A stretch of 64,000 bases of DNA from Bolinopsis microptera (taxonomy: Eukaryota > Ctenophora > Tentaculata > Lobata > Bolinopsidae). Positions 13,201 through 57,274 of the stretch are shown in pieces; the stretch's first letter is position 1, and each line of letters opens with the position of its first letter. The notes beneath the pieces were generated by a model. It made no database searches. It saw only the letters and a list, made by a program, of their open reading frames with translations, and was not told where the DNA came from. Position numbers and translations under genes: made by a program. Location of the stretch: assembly GCF_026151205.1 (NCBI RefSeq), contig NC_087074.1, forward strand, positions 17,460,712 to 17,524,711, written 5' to 3'.

Positions 13201-16200
13201 CCACTGGACTTAAGGCGTATTGATGGAACGAACCGGGACCCTGATCACACACACCGGGTACCAAGTGGCCAGTGTAGTGGTTCAACTAAACCGCGTTAAT
13301 ATCTCTGCACTAACATAAAGACTAAATTGCAGAAATTGGAAGAGAACACTGCAATATACGTGGGGGCGGCAGGAGTGCCCGAAAGATAAGATCTGATCAT
13401 CTACCTTCTCGACAACCGGACATGGGTTACTGAGTTGAGAGCAAGGACATTATCAGCTATTTTCACAGACTTTTACAACTGCGATGTTTTGTGTAATGAG
13501 ATTTAAAAAAAGAAGGGGTCAAGTGTCCTGGAAAGACGGCCTGTAATTATTTTATCAATTTTATCATTAAATATTAATTATTAAATTATTATTTTTGCTG
13601 AGAACACACCACACCTCGTCCCGCAAAGCAGTAAGAGTTATTGTGAAAGAAGAGCCCAGGGGGGTCGCCATAGCAATTTTTGGCAACTTTCACCTAAATT
13701 TACAAAATTTCCGTAATTAAAAGGTTGCCAAAAGTCTTGCCTGCGAGAGTCTTTCATCAAAGAAGTCAGCAATAGAAACAAACTTGCCTTTCCTCCAAAG
13801 TGGAGATCTTACCAACTGATATTCAGGAAGCAGGGTTTAGACTGCTCTAAGAGCAGCATTACAAAGTACCTAATGGGGTCAAAGAAGGTGCTGCCCTCTA
13901 AGGGAATGGCCAACAAAATGTCAGAGATAATGGCTGTCGAGAAAGACAAGAGGGATGATGCTCTCCAGATCGTCAGACCGTCACCCTCAGCAGGCACAGC
14001 AGGTCCCAGTAGGCAGGTCCCAGTTGCCACAGCACCAGTCCCAGCACCAGTCCCAGCACCTGCCCCAGCACCTGCCCCAGCACCAGGCCTAGTAGCCCCC
14101 TCCATAAAGGCACATTTCAACATCTCAGTCAAGGAGAGGGAGGCACTCTTTGCGTTCCTAATGTGGGCGAAAACCAGTGACGATGTCAAGGACCCTGTCG
14201 ACATCCTTAAAGAGAGAACATGGTAGATGAGGAATGTGCTAAATCAGTTCCTCGACTATTCCGAGGAGACAGGGATCATCACAAAGGGTTATTGGGAGTT
14301 TATTCGTAATGACCCAATGCGGTTCATCAGTCTCTTAGAAAGATGTTATAATGTGATGTTATTAACTGTTATCATTCAGGATGTTTTTGTTAGACTTAGC
14401 AGAATACTAATCATTATATATTCATAGCATGAGAACCGGTTGAAGTTTGTAGAAAGAGGATTTATGTTATTGTAGAGTATCAACCGGTACGTATTCCTTT
14501 AAACTATATATTTACAATGATCTATATACTACTATATATTTACAATGGGTAATTGGAACTTGATACAACTATTTGAGTTTATATTATTGGTGTGATTGAT
14601 TGGGGGACTGGTCCGTAGTACCAGCCAATGTTTACTCAAAAGTAATATATAATTGAAATAAGTTAAATATTCATCCCCGAGGGGCACGCAGATTATAATT
14701 GTGATGTTATCTATTAAAACTATTCAATTAAAATTTTATTGGTCGAGTCGACTGGCCCTGATCTGCAAACATATTTGATATTAGTAACTTTATGACGCTG
14801 CCTCACCGCAATTAGGTGTGTTATCAGTGTAGATATTATGCGCTATGTGGCAGTGAAATAAGGAATGTGCTGTTAGAATGGCAGGTGGTTTGAAATGTTG
14901 TCCTGATTCAGATTGTTTAATTTGAGCTGTATGAGTTTGGTTTTGAGTGATTATTGACTATGTTCTTTGTGATTTACGTAATCCAGGTAGGTTGTGGAGT
15001 AAAAATGGTGGCCATTCGTCGTTGCAGCCAGCACTTTGCAAGTCTAGTAGTACTTTTTTTGACGAATTCTTATATATGTTGATAGAAAATATACTGGATG
15101 GGCATGTAATGCGAGTGTTATGCTCTGAAATAGCGAGCATTGGGCCTTTATAAAAGATGCTAGATCTCAGGTCAGTCTGTGAGTAAATTGATAACCAGTC
15201 TAAGTTTTGTTCGTGTGTCGTTCCTTGTTTGGGTGTGTTAGGAGGGAAAAGTTCTGAAATCGATTTAGGTAACAAACTAGACATATTTCGAACTTTGTGC
15301 AGTAAAATAAGTGCGTTTTTAACGATAACCCCTTGAACGGTTAAGACCTCGTGTTCTTTAAATGCTAGTTTTGTGTGCTCTGGCAGTTTTCCGTCCTTGT
15401 AGTAGTAGTTCACATTTCCGGCCATAACTGCCCTCATACCTTGTTTTTGTTTAGCAAAAAGAGATTCTATAAGAGATTTTGAAGCAAATCCCCAGACAAG
15501 TGAGCAGAAGTTTAAATGGGACTGAACAAAACTTTGGAAAATCTGTAAACGGGCCTTCATCGGCAATTTATGTTTTATCCTGTACATCACCCCAATAAAT
15601 CTTGACATCTTGCTCCTCAGTGCTTTTATGTGGTTACTCCAGTTAAGCTTTTCGTCTACAATTACACCAAGAAACCGAGCTTCAGTTTTACGTTCTAATA
15701 CTGTGTTTTCTATTTGTACTTTAATCAATGATGGTTCTATACGCTTTTTCGAGAAAATCATATAACACGTCTTTTTTAGATTTAGTGCTAATCCGTTGCT
15801 ATTAACCCACCGTGATAATGTTTCCGTTAATTGGTTGACCCTTAGCATTAGTTCTTGGACATTGGAACCGTTAATAATGATATTTGCATCGTCTGCATAA
15901 AGTATGAATTTTACCATCATGTTAGAAATACCGGGAAGATCGTTGATGTATATGACGAAAAGTAAGGGACCTAATATGCTCCCTTGTGGAACACCATGCA
16001 CAATAGGCTTGTGGGACGAATGTGAATTGTTTATTGCTACATATTGGCTTCTATCACTTAGGTATGACTCAAACCACTTTAGAGCTATTCCCCGGATGCC
16101 GTAGTGCTGTAATTTATTTAGCAGTGTAGCATGATCCAGGACGTCAAACGCTTTACTGTAATCTAATAATAGCAGTAGTGAAATTTGGTTTTTGCTAAGA

Positions 16201-19200
16201 GAGTGTAAAATTGTACTTTGTGCATTAAGAAGAGCATGTTCACAGGACCTTCCTGGACGGAAACCATACTGATTTTCGAATAAAGAACTATTTTTGTTGA
16301 GAAATTCTAAGACACGTCGGTGCATCAGTTTTTCGTAGATTTTTGAGAAGGAACCTAAGAGAGAGATGGGTCTATAATTTTCAACGTCAAGTTTAGAGCC
16401 TCCTTTATGGATGGGAGTTACTTTGGCAATTTTAAGGGCCTGTGGAAATATGCCTGTACTTAAGGATTCGTTGATAACTTTTGCTAATATAGCAAGGAAA
16501 CTATCGCTGGAACTGGCTACTTTTAGTGGTTCAATTTTTGTGTCAAGGGTCGCTTTGTTCTTCAAACCAATAATAATTCTTTGAATTTCGATCGTTTCGG
16601 CAGGCTGTAGATAGATTGATTGAGAACAGGATGTGGGCAGATATTCCTGGAACCCCCCAGGGTCAAAGGTCTGACGGGCACTTATCTGAGTTTTGATGTT
16701 CGTAGCAATGTTCGAGAAATAGTCATTAAACCTTTCAGCCACGGTATCTTCAGAACTCAAAATCGACCCGTCCGAACCCTTAAGTCTTAACTGCTCAGTT
16801 TTCCTGCTTCTACCAAGTAAACCGTTGATTATTTGCCATTGTTTTTTGGAGCAGTCCTGGTATTTTTCGAATTGTTTTTTATAGTATCGTTGTTTGGCAA
16901 TGTTGACATGTTTTTTACAGAAAAGTTTTAGCTTTTTATAGGCCTCTATATTATTCATTGTAGGTTCAAGTACTTTACTATGATAACTTTCTTGTTTCCG
17001 CGCACATGCTTCTTCAAGCCAGGGTAATATCCAGGGTTTAGTATTAGAACGCTCATGCTCACGGCGAATATGATTGATTTTTAGTGGATAGGCAGTGTTA
17101 TAGTGCTTGGTGTATATATCTGCAAGTTTTCCGTATTGCAGACTAGCGTCGTCTGTACTTAATATCTCTTCCCACGTTTCCCCATCGATGAGTTCCCTAA
17201 AAGCAGCATTGTTGGCCTCATTTATGACACGTGTTTCATAACTAAGTTTAGGTTGTGTGTTAGTGGGTAGCCTGAGATGTTGTTGCGAAGAGTTACTTAG
17301 TTTAAAAGTGGTAACGATAGCAAGATGATCCGATAAATCCACCGTTACAACGTTACTGCTTATTGTGTGACTTATATTATTTGTGTAGACATGATCAATT
17401 AAGGTAGCACTATGATCGGTGACTCGTGTCGGCCTTGAAACCGTCTGAACAAATCCATACTTGGCAAGGAGGTCTATGAGGTTCTGTCCAGAGATATCAG
17501 TTTTGAATTTTATAAGATCAATGTTCGCGTCCCCAAAAAACATGATATGCTTGCGAGAATGTCTGTCTAGACCTCGTAGCACCTTTTCCAAAGAATTTAA
17601 GAAGTTCTGAGTACCTTTAGATGGGGACCTGTAAAAGTTTATCAATACTTTTGTTTGGTTTGTGCCTTTGCAATTATGCACCTTAACTAATTGAAATTCA
17701 GCGCACGTGTCTTCGGGATCTGTGGTTGCCTTAAGATTTTCTATATTTTCGGGATCACAAACCCTCTTATTAATGTAAATTACAAGGCCACCACCTTTTC
17801 CTGATTTGCGTAATGGTTCCTGAACAATAGGCTCGTGAAACCCTTCAATTTTAATGTCGGAGATTCCGTTTGGTAATTTATCTAACTTCAAATTGGTTTC
17901 GTTAAGACACAAAACGTCATACTTAGTATAACTGTCGATTTCTTCACGGAAGTATGTGATGTTCTTTACTAATGATCGCACATTAAGAGAAAACACTTTC
18001 AGTTCATCACGGGAGGAACTTTTAATGTTCGATGGCTGCTGATACTTACAATTGGTTAATATATCGCTGATTTCGTTCCAGTAATGGTAACTTTCATCGT
18101 TATCCTGATCTAAAGCGTTACCAATCAAATCTAAACCATGTGAGCGGTCGTATGGATTGAAAAGAGCAGTGATTCGGCTGCTACAGTCCATAAAAAGATC
18201 ATAAGATGTCACATAATAACCTGGGATTAACGACTCACAGCACTTTATGCAGCCTAAATTATCTCTAAAACACTTTTTATGAATGTACTCATCGCACCAT
18301 GGACAAAACCTAATGTTTAATCTAGAATAACAAAACCCGTTACAGGCCATGCACTTTGTTTTAAAATTAGTCTTGTTAACACTACTTTTTTTATTCGTCG
18401 GGACATCAGAGGCATTGATTGGGAGAATTGAGCTTATGCATTCATAGCAGAACCATGGGTTCCCAGAATTTATAATGTGCCGGGCATCGTTTTTTGATAG
18501 TTTCTGGCATTTTAAATGTTTACGTTCAGCACATAGGTCACAAATTAGGTCAGGAGAACTTTTAGGGATACGAACATAGCATTTGTCGCAATTGGGCTGT
18601 GAGCCGTGTTGCCTTTGATTACTTCGCTCCACTTTCAGTGACAGAATAAAGTAAGAGTTGAAAACAGATTAAATAAATGAAACAAAAACTGAAAAAAGAA
18701 CAATTGATATTAATATATAATCTGATGGGTGTAGACAGTAGGCTGGTCAGATCCGTTTGCAAGAACTTTCAGTTCTGTGTGCAAGACAAGATCGTGACGG
18801 TTGGGCCTATTTGCTACTTAAAAACTACAGATTATCGTCTGCTCAATATCAACAGGCTCTGCAACTAGTTCTCTTAAAGAATTTGATAATAAATAACAGA
18901 AAAGATTGACTAATGCGAGGGGCGCACGGACTGTGGATCAGTCATAGTCTGTCAGAAGTCGGTAGTTGGGTAGATTGTCGATGTAATTTGTCGTTTTCTG
19001 TATCAATTGTACAATGTAATAAGATGTAATAATATACAGTAGGCCTCGTATTTTGTTTTATAAATGAAGTATTAAACGATGCGATTAAGGGACTGTAATT
19101 AGAATGACTGATAAGTGTAAAGCCGAGATTACTGATAAGGCGAGATGTTGTGACAGGTGTAAGTGAGTTGCGATAATATTAGTATTCGACGTGTTTTGAA

Positions 19201-22200
19201 ATTGTTATACTACGTTGGCTTAATTTGAAATATGATTGCAGATCAGTCCTTTTACAAATTGATCATAGTACTAGAGTAGTTGTATGTGTTTAACTCTCAG
19301 CCGAAACCGCAACTATTCATATAGTTGTTACATATATCTAAAAATGGACGTCTTAGAGGTAGTGATCCTTTACGAAATCCTAAACTCAGTAAAATCAAAT
19401 TTATCCAACATGTCGTGAGAACAGATTTGCCAGTGTTATTTAAATGTATGCCATCCCGTGCAAGGTGAGGCAAACCGAAATTCAAATTGTCAAACAAAAG
19501 AAAGTTGGGCGAGCGTAGTGAGAGATGAACAAGCAGCTCGTTCAGGTTGTTAATACTGTCGTTCAGCTCATGGTAAGGGTCTGCATTCAAGTTGACTGGT
19601 GATATGGCGTCGAAGATGAATTGAGTGCCAGAGTGACTTATGAAATGTTTTAGGTGGTCGTGCAAGGTCATAGGATCAGCATGACCGAATCTGAGGTCGT
19701 TCACTCCGGCACTGATGAGGACTAAATCAGATTGTTCTATTGAGGCTTGGTGTTGTTCTAAGTCTCTCAGATGGAAGAGATCTTCTCTGAACGCAATGAT
19801 CGGCTCTTTGAGGAGAGAGCAGTCGAATGTACGGTTCTTGGAGTCAGACAGTATAAGAACTCGCCGAAGTCGTTTCGATGTTGGGTGGTCCTTGTGTGGT
19901 GATGATAGGCCTGACGACAAGGAGCCTCGTTGGGGACGTCTGCTCTTCTTGACTGTACTGGGGTCTTCTAGCAGTCTGAAGGTAATGCTCAATCGGGGCC
20001 CCTCAAATTTCTCTTCAGGGATTCCTGGAACGGAGTGATCCCATTCATCCTGGCTTTGTCTGGACATGGTATAGAGAGAACCATGAGTAGCTGTGAATGT
20101 CTCCTTCTTGTACTCTCCAGGGATCTTCCTCCGAAATACCACTTCTCTAGGACAGCCGAGTGACAGAGTGATGATGTTACTATCCCTACTGATACTGGGT
20201 TCGTTGTCTGAGTGGGGTGGAATGCAGGAGCGGGGAGAATCGTATGAGGTGACCATGGCTGAGTTGAAATTAAGATCTGGATATTCGGTCTTAAGAACAT
20301 TAGCAATTTCACTCAAATATGACGATTTTGAAATGTCTCTAGCATGATGGGAACCGCCGGAATAGCGATATGAGAACTGACCATAGTAGGCAACACGTCT
20401 ATTAGGAAAAGTACGGTCATAAGTTACGTCATCGTTCAGCGCAGAACTCGTAAATGTGTCAAAATGCGCACCATCAAGTGTCTCAAACGGTAGTGTACCT
20501 GAGTTTGTCGAGTTACCGTGTAGTCCTGGGCTGTGTAGTCGTTGGCTGGGGGGTGGGGGGATGGGCGTCTGCTGAGGGCTGCAGGGTGGTTGAATAACTG
20601 TGGTAGTTGTTGAACTGAGAGTTTGGCTAATGTCTTTTTGAAGTCCTTTCAACTGCTTACTAGCGTCCTCCGTGTGCCTCGTAATGATTTCAGTTAAATT
20701 ATCAACGCAATTAGATAACAAGTTAAATAAAGAATCTTGTTCTTCGCCAATAAATTGTTGGAAATGCTCTTTTAGGGCCACACGAGCTTCGTCAATGTCC
20801 TTTTTACTACGAGTTTTACGTGGCAGATTCTTGATAAATTCAGGATTCAAAATGAGGTTGCTCTCCCTCATTATCTGATCTTCATCTAGCTTGTCGACTA
20901 GCTCTAGGCTGGTCAGCGCTGAGAATCCCCCTAATCGTTTTGGTTCAGGTTCCATTATCAAAAACTTACTTTACTGGAAAGTTTGTGGCAGCTTTATGTA
21001 ATTGGACGGTTCTGATTCCCGTACCGCCTAGCCTCAGTCTGTCAGTCGTAGTTAGTTACCACAGTCCACGTCACAAGCACATGCAATTTAGCTGTTATCT
21101 ACATACAGATAAGAGTGGACAAACGTACTACAGAAAGAAATGTGTGTAATAAATCCTATTTATTACAGGTTCTGTTTCTATTTCAAACCCAGCGAGTTTC
21201 TCTTGTCAACACCCAAGTCCTGTGAACACACATATTAACAGTGGTAGCAGTTCAGTTAACTTTGTGATACACGACAGAGAAGATCCACCGCATCGAAAAG
21301 GAACTCTGAAGGAGTAAGTAGAGAGAAAAGGTAATTGGAAAGTACCGAAATTGTTATAGACTGTTCAGTTAATTAGAAGAAAGAGACTAATCAAGTAGAA
21401 AGTATTGAACTGTTATATACGAAGTATTGATTCAAGTGTTGAAAGTAGTTAGAATTAAAACTCAGTGTTAGTCAGTGTACATTTGTTTGTGTCAGTGTAC
21501 AGTAGTTTTGTGTTTGTAGTAATTGTCACATTCATTCACATTATGAGCGAGAGGATACCGAATCTAGAGGATACAGCCGTTGGAAGAAAGCGGTCAAAGT
21601 GTGGCAGTTGGGAACAACAGCAAAGAAAACTCAACAAGCCAGCCGTCTGATTGGATTCATGAATGGAAGAGCGTATGAAGCAGCACTACAAATAGCACCA
21701 GCAGACTTGGTTACTTTGGAACTTGGAATCACTGTTTTACTTTGTACTGAATGGAACTGGAACCCATGCAACTGGACAACGTAGAGGATTGGCTTAGGAG
21801 TGTAGTTGTACCAGAGTGCAATGAACCGGTGTTGATTGAGCTAGATCTTTCAGACTCAGAGTAGTAAATACTTGTTTTAATAAAGGATGGGAACTGGGAA
21901 GGGCCAGAAATGAGTTGTTTTATAAATTTAAATTATTGTTCTAATTTATTAATATTAGAAGTTTGTACTTTTAGTTTTACGAATGCCTTTTAAATGTACA
22001 TTGTGCAATCCAATTAAAATACCCTTTTTTGTTTTTTTACCCAGGGTTTTAATTTAAAAAGGTTTTTCAATCGTTGTTATTTTATACAATGTACATTATT
22101 TGGCATGATAAATAACAAACAATATGTTATTTCAAATTTATATTTTGAGATGGTATTTATTGATCAAAGGCAATGTCAAAATGAAAAGAGCGTCCTTCCG

Positions 22201-35275: not shown

Positions 35276-35368
35276 TTTCTTCACTGAAAACAAAATATGA
35301 AAGTTAGTGTGATATCAAATACAACAACAGCCCTGCAGATCGACTACATGGCGGGGTGACACGTCAGA

Positions 35369-41565: not shown

Positions 41566-41597
41566 CCTGATACCCTGTGATTCCTTTACGCAACTCG

Positions 41598-42623: not shown

Positions 42624-42660
42624 TAAATGTAATAGATTTGTAGTGTAGTAATTAGTTTAA

Positions 42661-43463
42661 AAGCAGTACTGATGGAAAGACTCTAATCTTCTTGTCTGCA
42701 CTTGAGTCGTGTTCCATATCTCACTTCCATAGGTCAGAATGGTAAGAACAGCTGCGATGTAGATTCGCACTTTGTTGTTAATGCTTATGTTCTTATTCTT
42801 CCAAATGTTATTGAGTTGGTTAAAAGCTCCGGTTGCTTTTCCAATCCTGACACTTATTTCTTTATCGATCTTGCCATCCGATGTAATTTTGGCACCCAAA
42901 TAAGTGAATTGAGTGACCTGCTTTGCAGAGTTTCCATCGACAGTAATATCTATGGTCCTATTCTCTGGGAGTGGGTGCTGCGACGTATCTTTCCCAATTA
43001 CCATGATCTCTGTTTTCTTTGCATTAATCTTTAAACCCCCAAGCCTACAGTATTTCGCAATATTGTCCGTTGTTTCTTGCAGTCCCTCGACAGTGTCATC
43101 CATGCCTGCTATGTCATCAGCATAGTCCAAATCAATGACACATTTTTCCGGTTGTCTGGAACTTTGTCTGTACTGAAGAGTAAAACCACGCGATATATTT
43201 TTAAACTTCTCGGCAAGTTCTAATCCCCAGTTAAGTACAAGGTTGAAAATGGGAGGCCCTTGCACATCACCTTGTCCAGTCCCCGAATCGACATCAAACC
43301 ATCTTGTCAATTCCCCATTGACACGAACTGCACTTTCAGTTGCTCTAAAGAACGCTTTGAAAACATTGATGTATTTTGTTGGAAGACCATAATGTTCAAA
43401 AGCTTTCCAAATAAAGTCACGATTGATTGAATCAAAAGCAGCTTTATCATAAAGACGGAGTGT
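42661..43463 (-). pseudogene. RTE-type LINE, reverse transcriptase part (upstream half)
   Basis: Reading from about 43,460 down: YDKAAFDSINRDFIWKAFEH, DVDSGTGQGDVQGPPIFNLV, IDLDYADD, GLKINAKKTEIMV and FTYLGAKITSDGKI, ending FHQYC at the LINE-D insertion. These are RTE reverse transcriptase motifs. The copy is truncated at its 5' side, with no endonuclease, as is common for LINE copies. Confidence 0.85.
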
Positions 43464-45660
43464 AAAAATAGTTAAAGCTATTGTTAATTTCATATGATGG
43501 GACACCATTAATTACAGCCAACATAAATGAGGATTTCATCACTGCTGCGCGCAGTGTTGTGACCCCTCTTCGTCGTATTTTACACATATTTGGACATTGG
43601 CAATTTATTCAATTGATAATTTTAAAGTTTTAACATTTTTATATTAAATTCTTTTTTAATATAGTTCTAAAACGATTAAGCTTGCTTTCTGTGCAAATTT
43701 AATGTACTTTCGTAAAATAATTTTGATGTGGCAGCGATTTGAAAAAGAAATTAGTTAAAAATGATACAAAAAAATTGGACATTTTTTGATATTAAAACAT
43801 GCATAACTTGGGCTGTGTTGACAGTAGAAAAATAATTTAACCCTTGTCCGAAAGGTTTACAAAAGTTTTACGCGCCGCGCATAATTGCCGCGCAATTTCG
43901 CGTGTCAAATCCGTCTAAGAGTGAACATAATTGATGAAGGAGCACTTTGACCTTTACACCTCGTGCGTTCACTGTTCGCGCCTCAATTGCGCCCAGTTCA
44001 CTGTTGCCTCGCGTTATTCCATCATCCATATTTCTCCTCTTAGTTGCTTTATAATGTGTCAGCAGTAATCAGCCCTGCTGTATTATATATTGTGCTTGAT
44101 TGTTGATACCTAATTAATTAACTGTTAACAATGGCAGTTATGTTGGATGATGATTAATCACTCTACAATCGCCTGTCACGTGACTTCTTCAACCCGTTCT
44201 GTAGATGGCCCTAAACAACTATTCGAAACCCGGAAACCATAACCCTCTAATCAGATCCCAACCCTAACGGCCTAACCCTAACCAAATCCTTTACAAAAGC
44301 ATATACTGAAACACTATAGAGAAATTAGGCTAACTTCCTTATTGTCATATCACGTGATCGAGACAGTTTTTCGCCAATATCTCGTTAGGGGAGAATTTTA
44401 ACCTTATGTCATGGGGGTAATAGGTAAGTGCTTAGGAACCTCTTTGCTTTTATTCGAGCCTTTTATTAAATCGAAGTTACAGTTCACGAGGTTGATCCTT
44501 TGGGAGATATTATAAATCCTGTTTTACTATTATTTATAAATTCTAACGTTTAACTTTAATAATAATAAGTAAGTTTGGACGCAGACTAGAAACGAGTTTA
44601 ATCGACTAAGTTTTTGATTTTGTGTACCTTTTTATCATACAACTTTTTTATTTCAGCAAATTTTAGTTCAAGAGTAAATCAAAGTTAGCAATCATTGAAC
44701 TCAATAGTTAAAAAGGTGACTGTAAAAATAGAACTAAGATTTCGATACTTTTAAATGAACTTCTAGTTCTAATGATATAATTTTAAATCATTAGATGTTT
44801 AAATTTTCCTGATAGCTGGATCATAGTCATGTTAAACATTGTCATGCAGAAATTAGGTTGAAATAATTTTGTCCATAGAAAACACAGTCAAGCCTTACAT
44901 TATTACAAGCTTTAAAGGGCTCGTGAGTCGTGTTAGTGTTACTATTACTTTTGAGCTTGAAAGCAGACAAAACTTTGCTTATTTGTTTGTTTATTATTTT
45001 GTTTGTTATTAGAGAGTTTTAATACTTTCAACACTACTATATAACAAATAATTTGAGGATGTACCATGAATGCACAATGACCATGTATCTCTAAACTCGT
45101 TGGCAATGGGGTAGCCTGTGTGGAACCTGCAGGGGTGGTGAAACAGAAGACTTGCTGATGGCCCTGCTTGAGAGTTGAGTACTTGTTGTGCTGTTGTTAT
45201 GTAAACACACTTCACTCATCCTCACAGTCATCACAGTCACCACACCTGGAGGGCTCACAGCATAGTTTATTCATGTTGCTCCCTCCGGCCATCATTAAAA
45301 TAGTAGTGTTGAAAGTATGCGAATTGTATCTTATCTGTCTTATTGAAATATACCCAGATTTGATATTGAATAATTAACACTCTTTCGGCTTTGCTATTTG
45401 TGCTTGCCAGCCCTCACTTTCCACAACATCCTCCATACCATCCCTCACATAATCAACCATATCATCTCACTTTCATATCATTCCTGTCTACGTTGGCATG
45501 TCAGTGTGTCAGTCTATGGATTCTTATTATAATTATTTCTATATATCTATAATATCTCACATTCTTATTCACGTTGCTCATTATTATACTCTATACTACT
45601 CTTCTCTCTCCCAGGTCCTGAGGCCTGTCTGACGGGACACCACCCTGAACGGTCCACCGG
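43464..45660. other. AT-rich intergenic region, no gene seen
   Basis: The region includes a palindromic CTGCGCGCAG with TGTTGTGACC at about 43546-43564, which recurs in inverted orientation at 61.5 kb. It also has telomere-like CCTAACCCTAACC at 44269-44283 and AT-rich DNA. No open frame with recognisable content was found. Confidence 0.5.
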
Positions 45661-45681
45661 CTGCCCCCGCCTCTACTGATA

Positions 45682-47496
45682 ATGGTTAATAAGCAAACAG
45701 AAAACAACAAGAAGAAGCTCAGCCTGAATAGCCCGAAGTTCAAGACGCCTGAAATCCGGAGTCCAATGTACGGCAAATCCCAGGGTAGCACCACACGGAG
45801 TAGATCCAGGAGTGAAGGTGACCAGAAGAATGTTAACTCAACATTAGCTACCACACCGACAAGTTCAGAGAACCGAAGCCTTCTGCAAGTATCCCTTCTC
45901 AACCGCACGGGAGTATCACCAGGAATATCACCACTAGCAACCCCCTTCTCAGATACTGAAGCAGAGACCTCAGCCTCAGACAGCAACAGTGCATCACCGA
46001 AACCTAAGCCCAAGAAGAGCAAATGCCCCTGCAAGGCAACTTCAGGCGGGAAGTCTTGGCTCTTGACATGTTCGCGCTGTAACCAAGTCTGGCATTCTGC
46101 TTGTGCAAACCTTAAGGGCAGTGAACTAGCTGGCCAGAAAGCCATTGATGAAATACTTAAGAGTTGGGAATGCCCTTGGTGCTACACATGCCCTCATCCC
46201 TGCCCAAAAACACATAAGTCTGCCAAACTTGCATTAAAACTGGAGTCTTTATCAGAAGCAAATCAGGTGTCAGCATCAGTTATTGAATCTCTTGACGGCA
46301 TGCTTAAGGCAAGATTTGCAGAAATCACCCAACCATCCAACAATCTGATTGATAGTATCCAGAAACAACTCAGCTCCCTGTCAGATCAGGTAAAGTCCAT
46401 GCAGATCCCTCAGGCACCACCCGTACCCCCACCACCCTCTGATATGCCCTCCACGTATGGACAGCAGCATCATCCAAGAGCACCTCCATCAGTTCCAAGG
46501 ATTGAAGTAAAGGATACCCCCCTTACTCATAATTTTAAATGCATAGAAGGGATAAAGGAAGATTTCTTAACTCCTGATGAAGAGATGGAGCTCACAGACT
46601 TTCTCAAAGCTGAGAGTTTCACTAAAGAAGGTAAGCATGCCACAATCCAGTATGGCCAACATTACCACTACATGGGTGCAAAATCGGAACCAAAGCCCAT
46701 GCCCACCCTGATTGGCAACATCATGAAACGTCTTAACACTGAATTCTCCTCCACACACCCCCAGAAACAGTTCCACTATGACCTAAACTCCTGCCTGGTT
46801 AACAGGTATGCAGATGGGAATGAAGCACTTCCTGAACATTCAGACAACGAGGGAGACATTAATCGGGTGTCATCGATATTCACAGTTTCCTTAGGCTCAT
46901 GTCGAACACTTAGCTTTCGTGAAACTTCTACAGATAAGATTACGGAGATAAAATGTCAGGGTAGAAGCATGTACCATATGACAAAAGCAAGCCAGGAGTT
47001 TTTTAAACACTCAATCAAGCCTGAAACGTCTGATGAAGTAGGAATGCGATATAGTCTAACCTTTCGCTCAATCCACTGGTCAAATTTTAACTCCACAGTG
47101 CTTGTTGGAGATTCAAACTTTGGACAAATCAACTTTGGTACAGGTCGTGGAAAGATGGGACAAGCCACCCCTGGAGTTCGCCTCTGGGCAGCTACGGTTG
47201 AGGAGATCGATCCCTTGTCTTGTGTAGGTTACAGAAACGTTGTCATCATGGAAGGAACCAACAATTTAAAAGTAGATGGAACGGATGAGAGAGAGTTGTA
47301 TACCAAGTATAAGAACAAAATCGCTCAGATTAGGAAATACAACCCACGTTGTAAACTGATAATCTGTCCTGTGCTGCCAACAAGAGAGAGAACTGTGATG
47401 TTTATGCACTTGATGGATATTCACACTTTTACGGAGATAAACTCCAAGGCAAAGCTAAAGGCTCAGGCGTGTGCTTGTATATTCATGATTCCCTAA
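45682..47496 (+). pseudogene. LINE-B ORF1: PHD, AlkB-like and truncated SGNH domains
   Basis: This 604-residue frame has a Ser-rich N-terminus. A PHD finger follows at about 115-167 (C-P-C ... C-x2-C ... H-x2-C ... C-x2-C). An AlkB-like domain spans about 317-465, with NRY (374-376), H386-S-D388, H443 and R456-YSLTF-R462. An SGNH domain starts at about 472 with GDSN (S478) and GTNN (N527), but the DxxH block is lost. After PTRER (residue 570) the frame runs into ORF2 sequence and ends out of frame. The AlkB signature residues are all kept, so the damage looks recent or limited. Confidence 0.85.
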
Positions 47497-50291
47497 ATGC
47501 AACAATTAATGACCAACTTTGCACAATCACACCAAATTTAGAAACCCTATATGTAACTATCAACCATGGAGATAGCAAACTCAATGTTGGGGTGTTGTAC
47601 AGATCTCCAAACGGAGACTCAGTCAAATTTGATGAAGAATACACACAATTAATGTCCAAATTTCCAAAAAATGCAAAAACTATAACTCTTGGAGATTTCA
47701 ACTACGATTTGCTTAAAAATCAGAGTAATAAAAAACAGGTTCAGAATTTCGAGAACACAATGCTCTCTTATGGTTACTTTCCTCTTATATCTCGTCCCAC
47801 TCACTCAGTAAATGTAGGCCAAAGCTCCTGCATTGACAACATTTTTACTGATGAGATTGACTTGGTAACCCTCTCTGGAGTTATTGAAGACACTTCTTCC
47901 CATCATAAACCAATCTTTGCTTTCTTTGACATCAGTCATTTAACTTCTAGGAAAACTTCCCCTAAGCCTAAGCAATTGCAAAGCTATGATTTCTCAAACC
48001 GAAATGTTGAACTACTAACAAAAAACTTGCTATCTAAGAAATGCATACTAACAAACAATGAAAATCCAATTGAATTTGACGAATTTTTTGAAATTTTTAG
48101 CTCAGCTATTGACTCATGTTGTAAACTCGACAAACCCAAACTCACCAAACGAAATCCTATAAGTAACCCCTGGATATCCGACAGCATAATTGAAGCAATT
48201 GAAAAGAAAGGTCAGCTGTATGATAACTGGGTGAACTCAAAAAAGCTCCCTGACTTCAAGCCAGTTGGAGATCTGAAACTCCACAAAATTTTTCGTGATT
48301 ACAGACGCTGTCTTAAAAAGATAATAAAAAACCAAAAAGATACCTATAACTGTAACAAAATTCTTGAAAATTCTGATAGTTCTAAAAAGATGTGGGAAGT
48401 AATAAATGAGATAAGAGGGAAAAGGAAAAAAACCATCAAACCCCAATTTATGGTAGATGGAGTCCGTGTTGTTGAAAGACGGGTGATAGCCAACAAATTT
48501 AATGAGTACTTTGCCTCTATTGCCTCAAAAATGAATGAAAATACTCAAAATGGCCTTCTTTTAGAACCTCTTCCCTCTTTCCTCGAATTCATGCCACCAA
48601 AAACTCTCGATTCAATTTACTTCCATGACTGTAGTGAAGATGAAATTTCTGAGATTATAGCCAACTTGAAGAGTGGGAAAGCTAGCGACTTTCCCATAAG
48701 AGTAATCAAAAAACTATCGGGTATTCTTAGCCCAACTCTTGTTGTTCAATTTAATCGCCTAATATCTCAAGGGATATTTCCGTCAGTTCTGAAGCTTGGC
48801 AAAATAACCCCAATATACAAAAAAGATAACGAAGAACTGATTGAGAACTACAGGCCTGTTTCCACACTTCCAATTTTTGGTAAAATTTTTGAAAAGATAA
48901 TATACAAACGTCTTTACAGCTTCTTGGTTAGTCAAGGAATCCTTCACGACAGTCAATTCGGATTCCGAAAGAGTCACTCAACATCACATGCACTTAACTA
49001 CTCAGTTTTTCACATCCAAAAGGCCCTAAAGCAAGGTCTTCATGTTCTAGGAATTTTTATTGATCTAAGCAAGGCCTTTGACACAATAGACCACACAATT
49101 TTGCTTGAGAAACTTGAAATATATGGGATTAGAGGAGTGCCACTTAAGTTACTGGAAAGTTACTTGTCGGACAGAGAGCAGTGTGTGTCCGTCCTGGGCG
49201 AAGTATCAGACAGACTTCCTGTTCTCTATGGCGTTCCACAGGGGAGCTGCCTTGGGCCTCTCCTGTTTTTAATATACATAAATGACTTAACAAACTCTCA
49301 ACTCGATAACACTAGCTATGTCCTATTTGCTGATGATACAAACATATTTGTAGTTGCCAAAACTAGAGCAGAGGCCTACAATAATGCAAATAGGGTCCTA
49401 CGATCAGTCCACGAGTACACATTGGCTAATAAATTACATGTTAACGCCAAGAAAAGTTGCTACATAGAATTCAATACAGCTAAAAGAAAACTTGATGATC
49501 AATCTTTATTAATTGAAAATAGACTTTACCTCAACGGCCTACCTCTCTCAAAGGTGCAGGAAACGAAATTCCTGGGAGTAATTGTCGACGAAGGCCTAAC
49601 TTTCAATCCCTATAGAGACAAACTAGTTAGAAAACTCTCGTCCTGTTCTGGGAGGCTATACATGATTAAGGATAAAATTCCATCATCTATCCATAAGGAC
49701 CTGTACCACACACTTTTTGAAAGTCACCTATCTTATGGCATTACCGTTTGGGGAGGTGCAAGTAATAATAAACTTCAACCACTATTTGTAGCCCAGAAAA
49801 AGTGTGTTCGTATCATGTTTGGTGACAAAAAAGCATACCTTGATAAATTTATGACATGTGCTAGGACTAGACCTATCAGTGAACAGAAACTTACCAGCAA
49901 ATTCTTTGAAAGAGAGCACACCAAGCCAATTTTTGCCCGTCAATCACTCATGACATTGCATAATTTATACGCGTATCACTGCTGCAATGAACTTTTTAAA
50001 GTCTTTAAATATCGAACACCAATTGCACTATTTGAACTTTTCTGTTTGTCTAAAAGACCCGGCAAAGAAACTCTTCTTATAACAACCATGCCCTCAAACA
50101 GTTTCGTTTACAAATCTAGTTGCCTTTGGAATTCATTCCGTCAGATGTTGGCACTGAACGACCTTGAAATCACTCATGGTGTATTCAAATCAAAGGTAAA
50201 AAAAGTCATTCTCTCGTCTCAGGGTAAAGGTGACAAGAATACCTGGGCCCCTTTGGCAAACTTTCTGAACTCAGGCAGCTTGAACGACTAA
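47469..50291 (+). pseudogene. LINE-B ORF2: N-truncated endonuclease and reverse transcriptase
   Basis: The 940-residue open frame starts in the middle of the endonuclease (VCLYIHDSLNATIND). The zinc finger and the first catalytic Asn/Glu motifs are missing, and GDFNYDL and the conserved HHKPI remain. The reverse transcriptase is complete: NYRPVSTLPIFGKIFEK, SQFGFRKSHSTSHAL, IFIDLSKAFDTIDH, GVPQGSCLGPLLF and FADD. No stop interrupts it. Without its endonuclease N-terminus it cannot nick normally. Confidence 0.85.
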
Positions 50292-51440
50292 ATTTGAAAA
50301 AATAAAACTTCTTGTCTGAATGAACTATTAGAACCTCAAGAAGCTGATCCGCATGTCTCCGCTACTAAAATGTTTAATGAGCCCAATCACTCATCACTTA
50401 ACAGTTTAATCTTCAAAGTGAGTTGTACAATCTAGGTTGTTTTAAGTAGCTGTTGATAGTGTAAAACAGGAGTGACTTGATCGTTTTCATAACTTCCATT
50501 TACAATTTGTACCATAATAAAACTAGCACTGCCATGGGGTTCAAAAAGGGTCATTGTAAGCCTCCAGCGTAATGGTCCTAAGTCTCTGCCCCATGCAGTG
50601 CCTGTCAGCATCAGCTAACAGAATAGCCCTAACATAACGATCAAGCCACAAATTAGGTTCTATAATGATTTAATATTGTTGAATAAAGAGATTTGAATAT
50701 AATATTTGTTTTATTCTGAAATATTTGTTTTATTCTGAAGAGAAAGAAGACAATAGTACCTCTCGATTATTTCAGGAGAAGCTAAAAGCGCTGAAAGCCA
50801 AGAAGCATCTCCCGCAGGAGCTCAATGAAACGAAAAGTTTTCAATGAAACGAAAAGTTTTATTTTACATTCCTTTAATCATAAATAAAATAAGAGCTTAA
50901 ACCACGAACTAGTTAGCTAGAAGTAAACTTGAGGAAATATTTTTGGTGATTGTACATAATTATTTAAAAACTTTATTTGGTTGTTAGTATTTTTATTATG
51001 GTAAGTGGTTGAATTTAGTGAGACAAGGTCAGTTTCTCTATTATCTTAGAAAAATTTCTACTTTACAGTAGGCAATGCTGAGTGGCAGGAATGAGGGACC
51101 AAAACGCTTGGGGCTTATAATGGCCCATTTACAAACCACTTCAGACATGGCAGTGATGTCATTTATGCTTAATTCGTCTGAAACTGACCCTACTGCACTT
51201 CTAACATTCTATAAAAATCTCTTCTAAAATAGGTATAAAAATGCATAACACAAAACACACAAATAAAATGTTTATAATCCTTATATAATAAATTTCTATA
51301 GAACTTTTAAATTTCTATAAAACTAATAAACCTATTATATATATAATATTCATTTTGCACCCAGAGAAAGATGTGATCACAGAGGTAGTTTCGATATTAT
51401 GTTCATGACAAGGTATGGGGCTGCTGCAAGTTATATTTTG
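50292..51440. other. Spacer between convergent LINE-B and LINE-C
   Basis: This holds the LINE-B 3' untranslated region to 50739 and then about 0.6 kb of AT-rich DNA. A possible exon begins after TTATTTCAG at 50776 (EKLKALKAKKHLPQELNET) but has no good donor. A doubled AATGAAACGAAAAGTTTT lies at about 50824-50860. The LINE-C 3' untranslated region occupies the right part. Confidence 0.4.
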
Positions 51441-53216
51441 CTAAGATATTACCGCTTTTTCAAGCTTAAGTAATCTAGGCAAGGTCAATTTTAAAGTTTT
51501 TGCATTTTGTCGAACGCTGTTTAAAGCTAAGTTCCAGTCATTTGGTTCTCCTTCCTTTTGAGTGTGAGTGATGGTGATTCTTATGGATGATTTGAGGTGA
51601 TTGGGCTTATAACAGGTGAATGTAGTTAGCATGAGATTTTGTCGTACTGTATTCCATATTGTCCCTGCTCTGTATATGTAGCTGTCTGATGGTTTAGGTG
51701 TGAGAATTAGTGTCTCTTTGCCAAGTCTGCCAGATGTTTCAAAGAGGGAGTATAGTGATATAGGGGTTCTATATTTCAAGACCTTGAAGATGTCATTAAT
51801 ACAATGGTAGAAGTACAGATTATGCACATTCATGATTTCATGAGTGTTGAAGAGGGGTTTTGTATGCTCCTTTCTGTAGAATTCCTTGCCCAGGATTTGC
51901 TCCCCGTAGGGTCTGCATCGTGCACTAGTTTTAAATTTATCCAAGTATGCTTCTTTATCTCCAAACATTATGCGGGCACACATTTTCTGTGCTTTGAACA
52001 GAGGTTCAAGTTTTTTGTTAGATGCCCCTCCCCAGACAGTTATACCATATGCAAGATAGCTTTCAAACAGAGTGTGATATAGATCTTTATGGAGTGATGT
52101 GGGAATGTTATCTTTAATTCTATTTAGCATGCCACAGCAGCTGGCTAGTTTTTTTGCTAATTTCCTTCTATGTGCGTTCCAGTTTAGGTCTTCATCGATT
52201 GTTACACCTAAGAATTTAGTTTCATGTACTCTCTCCAAGGGTATGCCATTGATATTGATTTCTTGATCAGAGGGTGTATCTTTATCTTTGTTGGATCGAG
52301 AGTTTGAGAATTCAAGGTAACAGCTCTTGCCAGTGTTTATGTGAAGTTTATTGGCAAGCATGTAGCGGTGTACGGAATTTAGGACTTCATTGGCTTTTTT
52401 GTATGCTAGGTTTTTACTTTTTGCAGCGACGAAGATATTTGTGTCATCAGCGAATAGAACAAATTTAGAGTTCTTTTCAGAGTTTGTAAGATCGTTTATG
52501 TAAATTAAGAACAGAAGGGGCCCTAAGCAGCTCCCTTGTGGCACTCCAAAAAGCACAGGTAGAGTATCAGATATTTCATTGAGCACACCAACATATTGTT
52601 TACGGTCGGAAAGATAACTTTCCAGGAGTTTGTGTGCCCGTCCTCTGATCCCGTATGTGTTTAATTTTTTGAGAAGTATTGAGTGATCTATTGTATCAAA
52701 TGCTTTACTTAGGTCGATAAAGATTCCTAAAACATGATTACCGGCTTTGAGTGACTGCTGAATGTGGTGAATAGAGTAGTTGAGTGCATGTGATGTTGAA
52801 TGACCCTTTCGGAACCCAAACTGGCTATCGTGCAGTATTCCCTGACTCGAGAGAAAACCATAAAGCCGTGAGTAGATAACCTTTTCAAAAATTTTACCGA
52901 AAATTGGGAGAGTGGAAATTGGACGATAATTTTGTAAGTGTTCTTCGTTATCTTTTTTGTATATGGGGCTAATTTTACCTATCTTAAGGATGGCGGGAAA
53001 GCATCCTGTTGACATAAGGTTGTTGTATTGTATGGAAAGCACTGGGCTGAGAATGTGTGAGGCCTTTTTAATAACACTAATGGGGAAATCACTAGCTTTG
53101 CCATTTTGTAGCTCAGAAATGATATGAGATATTTCACTCTCAGTGCAGTCTGTTAAGTACATCGAATTTGGGTTAGTTTTTTGGTAAAAATTCAACAAAT
53201 GAAGGAAGTGGCTCAA
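51441..53216 (-). pseudogene. LINE-C ORF2 part 3: reverse transcriptase
   Basis: The 591-residue open frame has NYRPISTLPIFGKIFEK, SQFGFRKGHSTSHAL, IFIDLSKAFDTIDH, GVPQGSCLGPLLF and FADD, plus the C-terminal region YGITVWGGASN and CARIMFGDK. It continues part 2 after a frameshift at about 53190 (SFVEFLP / HFLHLLNFYQ overlap). Apart from the shift the domain looks complete. Confidence 0.88.
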
Positions 53217-54072
53217 TTTTCATTTCCCCATCAACTTGTTCATTCAATTTCGATGCTATTGAGGCAAAGTACTCATTAAATTTGTTGGCTATGAGTCTAC
53301 GTTCTGTGATGCGTACTCCGTCGACACAGAATTGAGGCTTTATGGTTTTTTTGCATTTTCCTCTTAATTCATTGATAACTTCCCAAGTCTTTTTGCTGTC
53401 TCCTTGATGATCCATAATCTTAGTACAGTAATATTTCTTTTTTTGACTTTTTATTACACCTTTAAGACATCGACGATAGTTTGAAAATTTTGTGTGGAGA
53501 TCAATATTTCCATCTGGACTAAATTCTTTTGACTTTTTCGAGGCTATCCAGTCATCATACAGCTCCTCTTTAGTTGAAATAGCTTCTGAAATTCCATCTG
53601 TCATCCAAGGATTGTTAATTGGATTTCTTTTGGAGACTTTGGGTTTATCTAGTTTGCAGTTAGAGTCAATTGTATGTGTGAAGATGTTAAAGAAGGTTTC
53701 AAAGTTGGTACTGTTTGCCATGATATCTTCTTTGGATTCAAGGTCTGTAATTAAAGTATCAACATTTTTCTTGGAGAAGCTGTAGTGTTGGAGTAGCTTT
53801 TTGTCTGAAGAAGTTTCGTTCATAGGCATGCAAAGGTTGAACATGGCTATGATTGGTTTGTGGTGGGAATTCATATCATCAATTACCCCAGACATCGTGA
53901 CGTGTTCAATGTCGTTGGTGAGTATATTGTCTATGCAGGAATGTTGGTGAATGTTTGTGGAATGAGTTGGTAATGAGATGAGCGGAAAGAATCCCAATGA
54001 AAGAAACAAATTTTCAAATTTTTGAGTTGTGGGATTTGTTCTCTTTAGAAGGTCAAAGTTGTAGTCTCCCAA
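53173..54072 (-). pseudogene. LINE-C ORF2 part 2: endonuclease C-terminal half and linker
   Basis: This 299-residue frame starts at the endonuclease MGDYNFDLL motif and holds SCIDNILTND and the HHKPI site. The linker follows, with RRCLKGVIKSQKKKYYC and INELRGK. It continues part 1 after a one-base-type slip near 54072-54084, in the stretch before GDYNFDL. Confidence 0.85.
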
Positions 54073-54083
54073 AATTATAGATT

Positions 54084-54851
54084 TTATGTCTTTGGGAAGA
54101 GTGACTTCAGGTGTGTCAACTCATTGAGAAACTCTTTCGAGTCCCCATTGGGTGATCTATAAACCACACCAACATTAACTTTTTTAGTCCCTTTATTGAC
54201 AGTAACAAAGAGTGATTCAAGGTTTTTAGTTGTACTGATAAGCTTGTCGTTTATGGTTGCATTGAAGGAACAGTGGATATATAAACAGACACCTGTTCCT
54301 TTTGTTTTATTTGGAATTGTATCATTATAGAAATGCGAGTAGTTGCTTAATTTGTACAGATCACCTTTGTTTTGATTAACATTTGTTTCAGCAAGAGCAA
54401 TAGCTGAGTAGGTAAGTTTTTGCATGCTCATTTCTGCAGAAAAGGAGTCAAAGTTGGATAGATTTCCATCTATATTGTAGAACATTGTGCTAAAATCAGA
54501 GTTATTAGGGACCTTTTCATGGACTGATTTAAGTTTGTAACTCTTACAGTTTTCCAAAATTGTGGATGCTTGGTTAATACAGTCAAAGGACTCCAGGAAG
54601 TCTTCTGAGTAGAACTTATCATCAGACTCTTTGTCAAGTCCTATGAGTTCCTTAAAGGGATTGTAGATCATGACACTAATACTGAAGCAGTTGGTGCATA
54701 AGTGTCCAGAGCCTCCTTGGCTAAATTTTGAATTTTTGAAGCATAATTTGTGTATTATTTTGGGACAATTTTGACATTCCAAGTATCCTTGACCAATAAG
54801 GACGTTTTTGTTGCAGCAGTCGCATATTTCTCGTTTGATTGATGGAGTCAT
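54084..54851 (-). pseudogene. LINE-C ORF2 part 1: zinc finger and endonuclease N-terminus
   Basis: The 255-residue frame has a PHD-like finger (CDCC ... CQNC ... HKLC ... CTNC, about residues 10-55). The endonuclease start follows (MFYNIDGNLSNFD, ALAETNVNQ, VGVVYRSPNGD). The ATG lies only four bases after the ORF1 TAG (TAGATAAATG), which suggests coupled re-initiation. It ends at a frameshift before GDYNFDL. Confidence 0.85.
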
Positions 54852-54855
54852 TTAT

Positions 54856-56844
54856 CTATACAGGGTTTGGTGGGCCACCTCTGAGTGCGTTAGAATATAA
54901 CCTACTGCTTGATAATTTAGTTTTACTAGATTTAAATTGAAAGATGCAGCGTTTTAATAGGACAACAAGGATGCTGGTGCCTTTTCTATTGAGATGGAGT
55001 TCATCTCCAACATCAGTCTTTGCAAGATCATAATCTAAAAGATTTGTTCGCTTGTCTAGGAACTTGATAAAACCTTCAACTAGGATAACTTTAAGGTCAC
55101 ACTGGCATAAATCTTCAGCAATAAATCTATTAAACATAAAAATTCTACGGTTCTTGTCGTGTGATTTTGTGGGAAGTACTGGACATATGAATATTTTACA
55201 TTTAGGGTTGTACTTCCTTATCAGACTAAGTTTTGTTTTATATTGCTTATAAAGTTCTTTGACCTTTTGGTCGGTAATTTTGTTCTTAAGGTCATTAGTG
55301 CCCACCATTAGCACAACATTACGGTATGATGTGCATGATAGTGGGTCTATTGAGTCTATTGTAGGAGCCCAAGATCTGAGGCCAGGGGTCGATTCACCAA
55401 GTTTACCTTTGCCGCTTCCGAATGTTATCGGCCCAAAGTTAGAATCTCCTATGAGAATAGTTGAGTTGAAGTTTGACCAATGGATGGCCCTGAATGTTAG
55501 ACTGAAGCGAATGCCGTCAGGGACAGAATCATCATCTTCTTTTTTGATGGTGTGTTTGAAGAAGTCTTGACTATGCCTAGTCATCTGGTACATGCTCCTG
55601 CTATTACATTTGACAGTCATTGTTTCGTCAGACTGCAAGTTCCTAAACTGAAGGTGACGTGGGATCCCTAGAGATATGGTGAAGATAGATGACTTTGGGT
55701 CAATATCCCCCTCATTGTCTGCGTGTTCTGGGAGAGTAGACTCCTTATCATCATACATGTTCACTAGGCAAGAGTTTAGTTTGTAGTGGTGCCTTTCCTC
55801 TTGGTGTGAAGACCCATACTCATTGTTGAGACGCTCCATCAGTTTCTTGATGGGTTCAGGCATCACCAAAGGGTTTGACTTAGAACCCATGTACTTGTAG
55901 TGCTCTCCATATTGAAGTACATTTCTTTGCCCCTCTAATGAGAATTCTGCGAGTTGAGTCTGTAGCATGTTCATAAGGTCGCTCTCTTCTTTCTCTGTGA
56001 TGTAGTCTTCTAGATGGTTTTCCACGTGCTTTATATCAGGAACCAGGTTGATTGAACTGACACTTTCTACTTGAATTGGGGCCCTTCTAGGGGGTTGTGG
56101 TGGTTGTGGGGGATTGTAGTCGTTCATTTGAGGAGGAGGAGGACGGTTAGGAGTGTTCTTTAAGGATGCTATGTTTTGGGTCAGCTCTGTCAGCTGATTT
56201 TGTATTGATGCAATGAAGTCAGTCGTGGGTTGGGTAATATGCTTCATTTTCTGCTCGACTATACCCTCCAGGGACTCAATTACCTCAGCCGAGATTTGGT
56301 TTGCATAGCAAGTTGTTTGCAATGCATTCGCTAACTTAGCCGACTTATGCTGCTTTGGTCTTGGGTATGGGGCAACAAAGCACCAGGGACAGCCCCAATT
56401 GGGAAGCAATGAATCAATCCCCTTCTGGGTAAGATCAGCACCATTCAAGTTTGCACATAGAGAGTGCCAAACCTGGCCACAGTCCTTACAGGTCAAAAGC
56501 CAAGACTTACCCCCAGAGGTTCTGCAACAGGGGCATTTGGACTTGACGACTTTAGATTTTGGCTTTGATGTGCTGGTGCTGTCATCACTAACATTTCCTT
56601 CAGACTCTGACATTGATGTTGCCAGAGGTGAAGCACGGCCATTTTTGAGGAGTGACGTCTGTAGGAGGCTCCTATTGCTGGGGGTTCTTTCAAAGGTAGA
56701 GTTTACGACTGCACTTCGTTTCTCACTTTCACTCTTGGATGATCTGGTTCTTTTCTCTGTGTGGGGGCTCATCAAGGAGGTGGGGGTCCTAGGTGAGTTT
56801 CTGTCAAGTCTTTTTCCGCTCATATTATTGAGAATATTGATCAC
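54856..56844 (-). CDS. LINE-C ORF1: PHD, AlkB-like dioxygenase and SGNH esterase
   Basis: The 662-residue protein is the complete form of this ORF1 type. A Ser/Arg-rich N-terminus is followed by a PHD finger at about 104-155, a helical segment (185-230) and a Pro-rich linker. The AlkB-like domain spans about 305-455: NMY (362-364, 2-oxoglutarate-binding type), H374-A-D376, H431 and R446-FSLTF-R452. The SGNH hydrolase spans about 460-635: IGDSN (S468), GTND (N517) and DELH (D614, H617). Every catalytic position expected of both enzymes is present. Met8 (MSGKRLD) is a likelier start than Met1. This is the best reference for domain borders in the three LINEs. Confidence 0.88.
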   Translation of the reverse strand: MINILNNMSGKRLDRNSPRTPTSLMSPHTEKRTRSSKSESEKRSAVVNSTFERTPSNRSLLQTSLLKNGRASPLATSMSESEGNVSDDSTSTSKPKSKVVKSKCPCCRTSGGKSWLLTCKDCGQVWHSLCANLNGADLTQKGIDSLLPNWGCPWCFVAPYPRPKQHKSAKLANALQTTCYANQISAEVIESLEGIVEQKMKHITQPTTDFIASIQNQLTELTQNIASLKNTPNRPPPPQMNDYNPPQPPQPPRRAPIQVESVSSINLVPDIKHVENHLEDYITEKEESDLMNMLQTQLAEFSLEGQRNVLQYGEHYKYMGSKSNPLVMPEPIKKLMERLNNEYGSSHQEERHHYKLNSCLVNMYDDKESTLPEHADNEGDIDPKSSIFTISLGIPRHLQFRNLQSDETMTVKCNSRSMYQMTRHSQDFFKHTIKKEDDDSVPDGIRFSLTFRAIHWSNFNSTILIGDSNFGPITFGSGKGKLGESTPGLRSWAPTIDSIDPLSCTSYRNVVLMVGTNDLKNKITDQKVKELYKQYKTKLSLIRKYNPKCKIFICPVLPTKSHDKNRRIFMFNRFIAEDLCQCDLKVILVEGFIKFLDKRTNLLDYDLAKTDVGDELHLNRKGTSILVVLLKRCIFQFKSSKTKLSSSRLYSNALRGGPPNPV

Positions 56845-57089
56845 AGGGATGTGCTGAGTGCCCTCTGGGCTGCCACCACCGGCGAATTAGCTGCACCTGA
56901 AATGAGTAGATCATGGGTGGACGTCTGATTTATAATGGAAAAAGGGGACATTGATTGCTTAAAACTATTTAGTAACTATTTTTTTTCATTAGATATAGCA
57001 TAAGGAAGAATTGATTTCGATTGAAACATAATATAACATAGTGAAATAAGTTGCTTTAGGGGTGGATGGTTGGGTAGGTGAGGTGGTGG

Positions 57090-57274
57090 ATGTTGTTGAT
57101 TAGATTTGGTAGTTTGATGAAGCATATGTATCGTTTGGAATTGCTTTATGGGTTAGAGGGTGGGGTAAAGGGAATTGTGGGATTCCTGGGTAAGGAGCTG
57201 TTGAATCAGCACGCTGAAGAAGTACAGAGACTGGTGAACAAGCTGATAAACTCAGACAGCAGCAAAAACTTCAA
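57090..57274 (+). CDS. Candidate exon of an unrecognised host gene
   Basis: An open stretch (LELLYGLEGGVKGIVGFLGK then NQHAEEVQRLVNKLINSDSS) ends at AACTTCAA|GTGAGC. It joins in phase to the next candidate exon at 58442-58514. Its start is unclear: a stop lies at 57075-57077, and the options are an acceptor in GGTAG|GTGAGG or GATTAG|ATTTGG, or the ATG at 57090. The composition and helical, charged sequence look like real protein. I do not recognise it. Confidence 0.4.

Follow-up and report, generated by a model that had tools for sequence, protein, structure and literature searches.

The esterase-type (type IV) first open reading frame (ORF1) of CR1/L2 retrotransposons, exemplified by zebrafish ZfL2-1, encodes an SGNH esterase, and PHD fingers are common among CR1/L2 ORF1 proteins (PMC3905857; PMC4120745). 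According to the accessible text of these studies, transposon esterases occur in chordates, cnidarians and sponges (PMC3905857), esterase-type ORF1s are found in only two vertebrate groups, and none of the 448 elements classified by Metcalfe and Casane in 2014 is described with an AlkB or other dioxygenase domain (PMC4120745). Here we describe long interspersed nuclear elements (LINEs) of the comb jelly Bolinopsis microptera that differ in this respect. They were found in a stretch of 64,000 nucleotides (contig NC_087074.1, positions 17,460,712 to 17,524,711 of the forward strand; hereafter the window), in which the ORF1 of one LINE, copy A, joins a PHD-like finger, an AlkB-like 2-oxoglutarate (2OG)/Fe(II) dioxygenase and an SGNH esterase. 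With ZfL2-1 these elements share the SGNH domain in ORF1, a coiled-coil region (here presumed) and an ORF2 with an apurinic/apyrimidinic (APE)-type endonuclease and a reverse transcriptase (RT).

Two other systems come close. The orchid Ty3/Gypsy element Gypsy_Pa_2799 likewise encodes an AlkB-type oxygenase, there termed 2-ODD; however, as far as the available text goes, this is a long terminal repeat element of a plant in which the enzyme occupies a separate ORF2 and was gained recently in one lineage (PMC9289625). In contrast, the domain described here is fused into a LINE ORF1, has an SGNH partner, spans many divergent families and is present in Helitrons too. The GDSL, DEDDy and dUTPase ORF3s of bdelloid rotifers and the Terminons likewise show accessory enzymes, GDSL esterases included, spread across retroelement classes, but the accessible text contains no occurrence of AlkB or dioxygenase (PMC5408684). 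We found no report of a LINE or a Helitron with an AlkB domain in the open literature, of which parts of texts were seen; subscription papers and Repbase reports lie beyond this, so that a report may exist.

ORF1 of copy A lies on the reverse strand at 54856..56823 and encodes about 655 aa from an ATG at 56823. The open frame spans 54856-56886(-) and thus extends beyond this putative start, but comparison with homologue P0002 makes the ATG at 56823 the likely initiation site and disfavours a GTG at 56844. The AlkB-like domain (55477..56040(-), residues ~283-470) matched the Pfam model PF13532 (2OG-FeII_Oxy_2) with E 1.1e-20; at 75.2 bits, and at 67.1 and 69.5 bits for two further LINE copies of the window, B and C, all three ORF1s score above the curated cut-off of 31.2. 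It is followed by the SGNH/GDSL esterase domain (54931..55473(-), residues ~472-652), whose match to PF13472 (E 7.5e-7) falls slightly under the curated cut-off. Upstream lie a PHD-like Cys/His zinc finger (56374..56544(-), residues ~115-171), which PHD-type Pfam models detect under their cut-offs (E 0.003-0.03 in copy A, 3.7e-6 in copy B), and a stretch of long helices (56158..56346(-), residues 181-243). AlphaFold2 places these helices at 181-218 and 222-243, and we presume that they form a coiled-coil linker. No RRM or CCHC model matched the three window ORF1s in Pfam at E values up to 1.

The first-pass annotation of this DNA had read copy A as a LINE ORF1 fusing PHD, AlkB and SGNH domains, and the domain content, the predicted fold and the conserved residues confirm the fusion. 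All the AlkB motif residues it named were found, 14 positions higher in our numbering (H388, D390, H445, R460 and R466), as was the SGNH catalytic set, here S482, N531, D628 and H631. It had also pointed to fold prediction as a check, and the structure predicted for the domain is indeed a double-stranded beta-helix of the AlkB type. By profile as well as by fold, the nearest solved proteins are ALKBH2 and ALKBH3, not FTO or ALKBH5. This kinship goes beyond the first-pass annotation, which had not seen that the erasers of N6-methyladenosine (m6A) rank farther away.

Three database searches provided 164 homologues (P0002-P0165), three of them from the ctenophore Mnemiopsis leidyi; the alignment excluded P0016, which is chimeric with RT sequence. 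With the query counted in, 159 of 165 proteins gave a profile match to the AlkB domain. The genome searches covered the 264.65-Mb assembly, whose 232 contigs include 13 (C1-C13) of 15-26 Mb, and gave 76 matches. Forty places, all open, were taken and five rows with internal stops were left out; together with the three window copies this makes a genomic set of 43.

Among homologues covering the respective site, the Fe(II) triad is nearly invariant (H388 157/157, D390 157/157, H445 157/158), as is the R-x5-R motif (R460 157/158, R466 158/158), which we take to be the 2OG anchor and the AlkB-specific arginine. Y330 and Y332 (each 156/156) and E392 (156/157), presumably parts of the base pocket, are kept equally well. 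The genomic copies retain H388 in 42/43 cases and D390, E392, H445, R460 and R466 in 43/43 each. The His/Asp/Arg residues, whose conservation across relatives the first-pass annotation had made decisive for its reading, are hence kept across 43 genomic copies and 159 proteins, and the Fe/2OG residues persist even where families share no more than 20-26% identity. The neighbouring domains are conserved as well: S482 is present in 42/43 genomic copies, N531 in 43/43 and D628 and H631 in 42/42 (copy C is misaligned at the latter two and reads DS by eye), and all three SGNH motif blocks were recognised in 119, two in 25 and one in 1 of the 145 homologue tails longer than 180 aa. Finger residues C118, C133, C136, H141, C144, C166 and C169 are retained in 39-41 of the 43 genomic copies; C121 is not.

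About ten families can be distinguished among the genomic copies, with identities of 20-55% between them. In eight families the closest copies taken are 95-100% identical; the other two, represented by L019 and copy C, are each without a close counterpart in the set. Of the 20 loci taken at 8-9 kb, 15 have open frames for both ORF1 and ORF2 (1126-1184 aa), including one (L007) whose ORF1 frame lacks the first ~85 residues. These intact frames and near-identical copies make the families look young. Separately, one locus (L017:625-5457(+)) holds ORF1, with AlkB and SGNH, and much of ORF2 in a single open frame of 1611 aa.

The AlkB domain is under purifying selection. The ratio of nonsynonymous to synonymous substitution rates (dN/dS) over this domain was 0.09-0.18 in 7 of 14 pairs, those with usable dS; one further pair gave 0.23 with few changes, two were unchanged and four saturated. 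Constraint on the N-terminal/PHD part is weaker in two pairs (0.65 for L009/L036 and 0.63 for L015/L040), and the SGNH region gave 0.54 for copy B against L005, where the frame of B is broken. We ruled out a chance motif match by E values, fold and conservation, and an unconstrained passenger by dN/dS.

AlkB domains of this genome are not confined to LINE ORF1s. PF13532 gave at least 151 genome matches (587 candidates, 150 scored), with one match containing internal stops among the matches listed. Besides the ORF1 copies, we read four loci (L041-L044) and checked six matches in frames longer than 2200 aa; the rows left out include frames of 813, 1012 and 1163 aa. The six lie in giant frames of 2225-3388 aa. 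One of these, on contig C10, is a single giant open frame read as two loci (L045:3383-7501 and L046:3-6146) and contains, in this order, SGNH (4.3e-6, under the cut-off), AlkB (2.5e-21), DUF6570, Helitron_like_N (9.4e-23) and PIF1 (6.2e-22). For the other five (L049-L055), the 2.5-kb pieces downstream all match the Rep/helicase part of this element, with identities of 99.5-100% for three of them and 48-50% for the other two. Because of this shared Rep/helicase part, all six giant-frame AlkB carriers count as Helitrons, and they represent two families or more. SGNH was looked at in one of the six, where the order is SGNH-AlkB, in contrast to AlkB-SGNH in the LINEs. The first-pass annotation did not mention AlkB in Helitrons. 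A short frame upstream of the same giant frame (L045:2735-3235(+)) has near its end the motif DVETNPGP, which we take to be a 2A-like peptide. A distant-RT LINE on contig C5 (L044 with L048) also carries AlkB and SGNH in one frame ahead of an APE/RT ORF2, with the ORF1 part upstream of AlkB in another frame. The genome contains host-like AlkB genes as well, with neither SGNH nor RT in the same frame.

We compared the transposon domains with three of these host genes, which we named ALKBH2-like (one) and ALKBH3-like (two) by motifs alongside Pfam hits. Trees were built from hand-chosen rows (33, 65 and 47) with the domains cut by profile, the 47-row tree being rooted on E. coli AlkB. LINE and Helitron AlkB domains formed one group apart from the three host genes with support values of 99/98 (47 rows), 98/94 (65 rows) and 92/99 (33 rows). 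The order of the host branches was weakly supported (90/57 in the 47-row tree), and an approximately unbiased (AU) test did not reject joining the host ALKBH2-like gene to the transposon group (p 0.208, 33 rows). The donor was probably of the ALKBH2/3-like class. To our knowledge, human ALKBH2 and ALKBH3 are cellular repair enzymes without PHD or SGNH domains; the transposon domains stand as a separate group beside the host ALKBH2-like and ALKBH3-like genes. A close phage source was not found by tblastn against 50,697 phage records, three of which showed a weak match of the AlkB region at 27% identity. In an RT tree of 15 rows, L048, copy C and a LINE without AlkB sat on long branches whose order was unsettled.

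The AlkB-bearing ORF1 is thus real, widespread and selected, and represents a new ORF1 type with an unexpected second occurrence in Helitrons. From sequence and model we infer a dealkylase or demethylase acting on element RNA or cDNA, which is consistent with the predicted structure. ORF1p would coat the element RNA and multimerise through its helical linker. As suggested for ZfL2-1, the SGNH domain may aid membrane or ribonucleoprotein assembly; the PHD-like finger may bind chromatin or a partner. The AlkB domain, using Fe(II), 2-oxoglutarate and O2, would remove N-alkyl groups of the 1-methyladenine/3-methylcytosine (m1A/m3C) kind, which would otherwise block Watson-Crick pairing and stall reverse transcriptase. 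It could act on the element's own single-stranded RNA template or on the cDNA strand made first. Two observations favour substrates like those of ALKBH3: ALKBH2/3 give the best matches, and Y330/Y332 and E392 are kept. LINEs transpose via RNA and single-stranded cDNA, and Helitrons via single-stranded DNA. As both intermediates are single-stranded, one substrate class would serve both, and the occurrence of AlkB in Helitrons, a rolling-circle class, suggests that the shared substrate is single-stranded nucleic acid. The elements may thus carry an enzyme of their own that cleans their RNA or DNA or unmasks it. We give roughly an even chance to the full reading, namely that a large clade of LINEs has an ALKBH2/3-type dioxygenase as a fixed, selected part of ORF1 and uses it to strip m1A/m3C-type groups from its own RNA or cDNA.

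Several observations weigh against this reading. One of the 43 genomic rows (L040) has Q in place of H388, and the conservation in the genomic set stems partly from the selection of rows, as open copies were chosen. At position 391, beside the Fe ligand, homologues and genomic copies show N, D, S or R instead of a fixed D, so that specificity may differ from that of ALKBH2/3. The host rows of the trees were one ALKBH2-like and two ALKBH3-like genes, leaving out host ALKBH1 and ALKBH4-8. Moreover, AU tests rejected neither a group of LINE rows alone (p 0.422 with 47 rows, 0.206 with 33 rows) nor a grouping of host genes with Helitrons (p 0.179, 33 rows), and the Helitron domain may therefore have arisen separately.

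The strongest competitor of RNA or cDNA repair is counter-defence, in which AlkB would erase a host mark, m6A in element RNA or N6-methyladenine (6mA) or another N-methyl group in DNA, to escape silencing or RNA decay. In the available text, the AlkB ORF of the orchid Ty3/Gypsy element is reported to bind RNA and to demethylate m6A in vitro (PMC9289625), and a meeting report describes N6-methyladenine on young L1 DNA in mouse embryonic stem cells that is removed by ALKBH1 (PMC6015446, seen in part). Counter-defence would also explain why both LINEs and Helitrons keep the domain. However, the nearest solved relatives are ALKBH2/3 and not FTO or ALKBH5, and in the L1 system, according to the accessible part of the report, m6A promotes L1 while its eraser ALKBH5 suppresses it (PMC7873242). 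We therefore judge counter-defence unlikely, if still a serious contender. Less probable again is that the domain acts on another substrate, by protein hydroxylation or on tRNA, or serves mainly as a nucleic-acid-binding module in place of RRM/CCHC. AlkB folds do bind single strands, and as RRM and CCHC models give no match in the three window ORF1s, RNA binding must fall to another part of the protein; yet a pure binding module would have no need for all the Fe ligands and both arginines that are kept in nearly all of 157-158 sequences despite their divergence. That a captured host AlkB gene only happens to be read beside a LINE, or is a decayed passenger without a role, is highly improbable despite the host-like genes in the genome, since AlkB sits inside ORF1, beside ORF2, in the three window copies and all 40 taken places, is under purifying selection and groups with other transposon AlkBs in the trees; a host gene lying beside a LINE was likewise ruled out by the position of the domain inside ORF1 in many families.

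Retrotransposon particle proteins bind RNA and some possibly lipids; a template-editing oxygenase would be a new LINE activity. The occurrence of AlkB in both an RNA-copied and a rolling-circle class yields the testable prediction of a shared single-stranded substrate. A tentative and rather doubtful extension is that AlkB and SGNH together are a mobile cassette, serving counter-defence or repair, which passes in comb jellies between transposon classes as unrelated as LINEs and Helitrons, with more than 100 loci marking an unrecognised methylation or alkylation pressure and the ORF1 being of a new type. On the practical side, transposons can dominate a genome search for AlkB genes, and AlkB counts and annotations consequently need care; four homologues (three plus one) are annotated as "alkylated DNA repair dioxygenase AlkB" at source. 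The families, as divergent as they are, offer a ready natural panel for enzyme assays. Arg391 was seen in L016, L019, L023, L024 and L031, which belong to one pair of related LINE families, the others having N or D; these families are a natural variant bearing on substrate.

Within the window, copy A extends over approximately 50822..57197(-), with limits common to other genomic copies. Its ORF2 (51441..54851(-)), directly downstream of ORF1, comprises a zinc-finger-like N-terminus, an endonuclease region and a reverse transcriptase (RVT_1, E 3.6e-36). It is split over three overlapping frames and hence disrupted by two or more frame changes; genomic copies L001 and L004 have this ORF2 as an open frame of 1136 aa. 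From the organisation, ORF1 followed by an ORF2 with APE-type endonuclease and RT, we take the elements to be CR1/L2-type LINEs. Short tandem repeats at the 3' end are a feature of such LINEs, and copy A ends in 2.1 copies of a 19-bp unit (50822-50860).

Copy B (45344..50739(+)) has its ORF1 at 45649-47496 and its ORF2 at 47355-50291. Its ORF1 contains PHD, AlkB (E 3.2e-18) and a truncated SGNH domain and is 50% identical to that of copy A (53% for the intact relatives of B). Relative to genomic copy L005, a deletion of ~0.8 kb at ~47385 has removed the SGNH end and the start of ORF2. Copies A and B stand tail to tail, ~80 bp apart (50739-50822), and at each of their shared 3' ends a 19-bp unit particular to that copy is repeated about twice. 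Copy C (14958..20970(-)) carries AlkB (~19963-20463, E 5.7e-19) and SGNH (~19381-19869) but no PHD in an ORF1 (19297-20970) that is 20-26% identical to other rows. Its ORF2 frame (14958-18668) of 1236 aa matches RVT_1 (E 1.9e-37) and Exo_endo_phos_2 (E 2.9e-9). In copies A (51441-54851(-)) and C (14958-18668(-)), Cys/His zinc-finger-like motifs (Pfam E 0.03) precede the endonuclease at the ORF2 N-terminus and give the element a second zinc-finger region.

A fourth LINE of the window (38602-42656(-)) shows a weak PHD match and no AlkB; adjoining it is a partial sequence from another reverse transcriptase, with DUF6451 (42657-43511(-)). A 280-aa open frame at 34472-35314(-), with a CCHC knuckle and a Ser/Lys-rich tail, is probably a host gene, which we take to be ZCCHC10-like.
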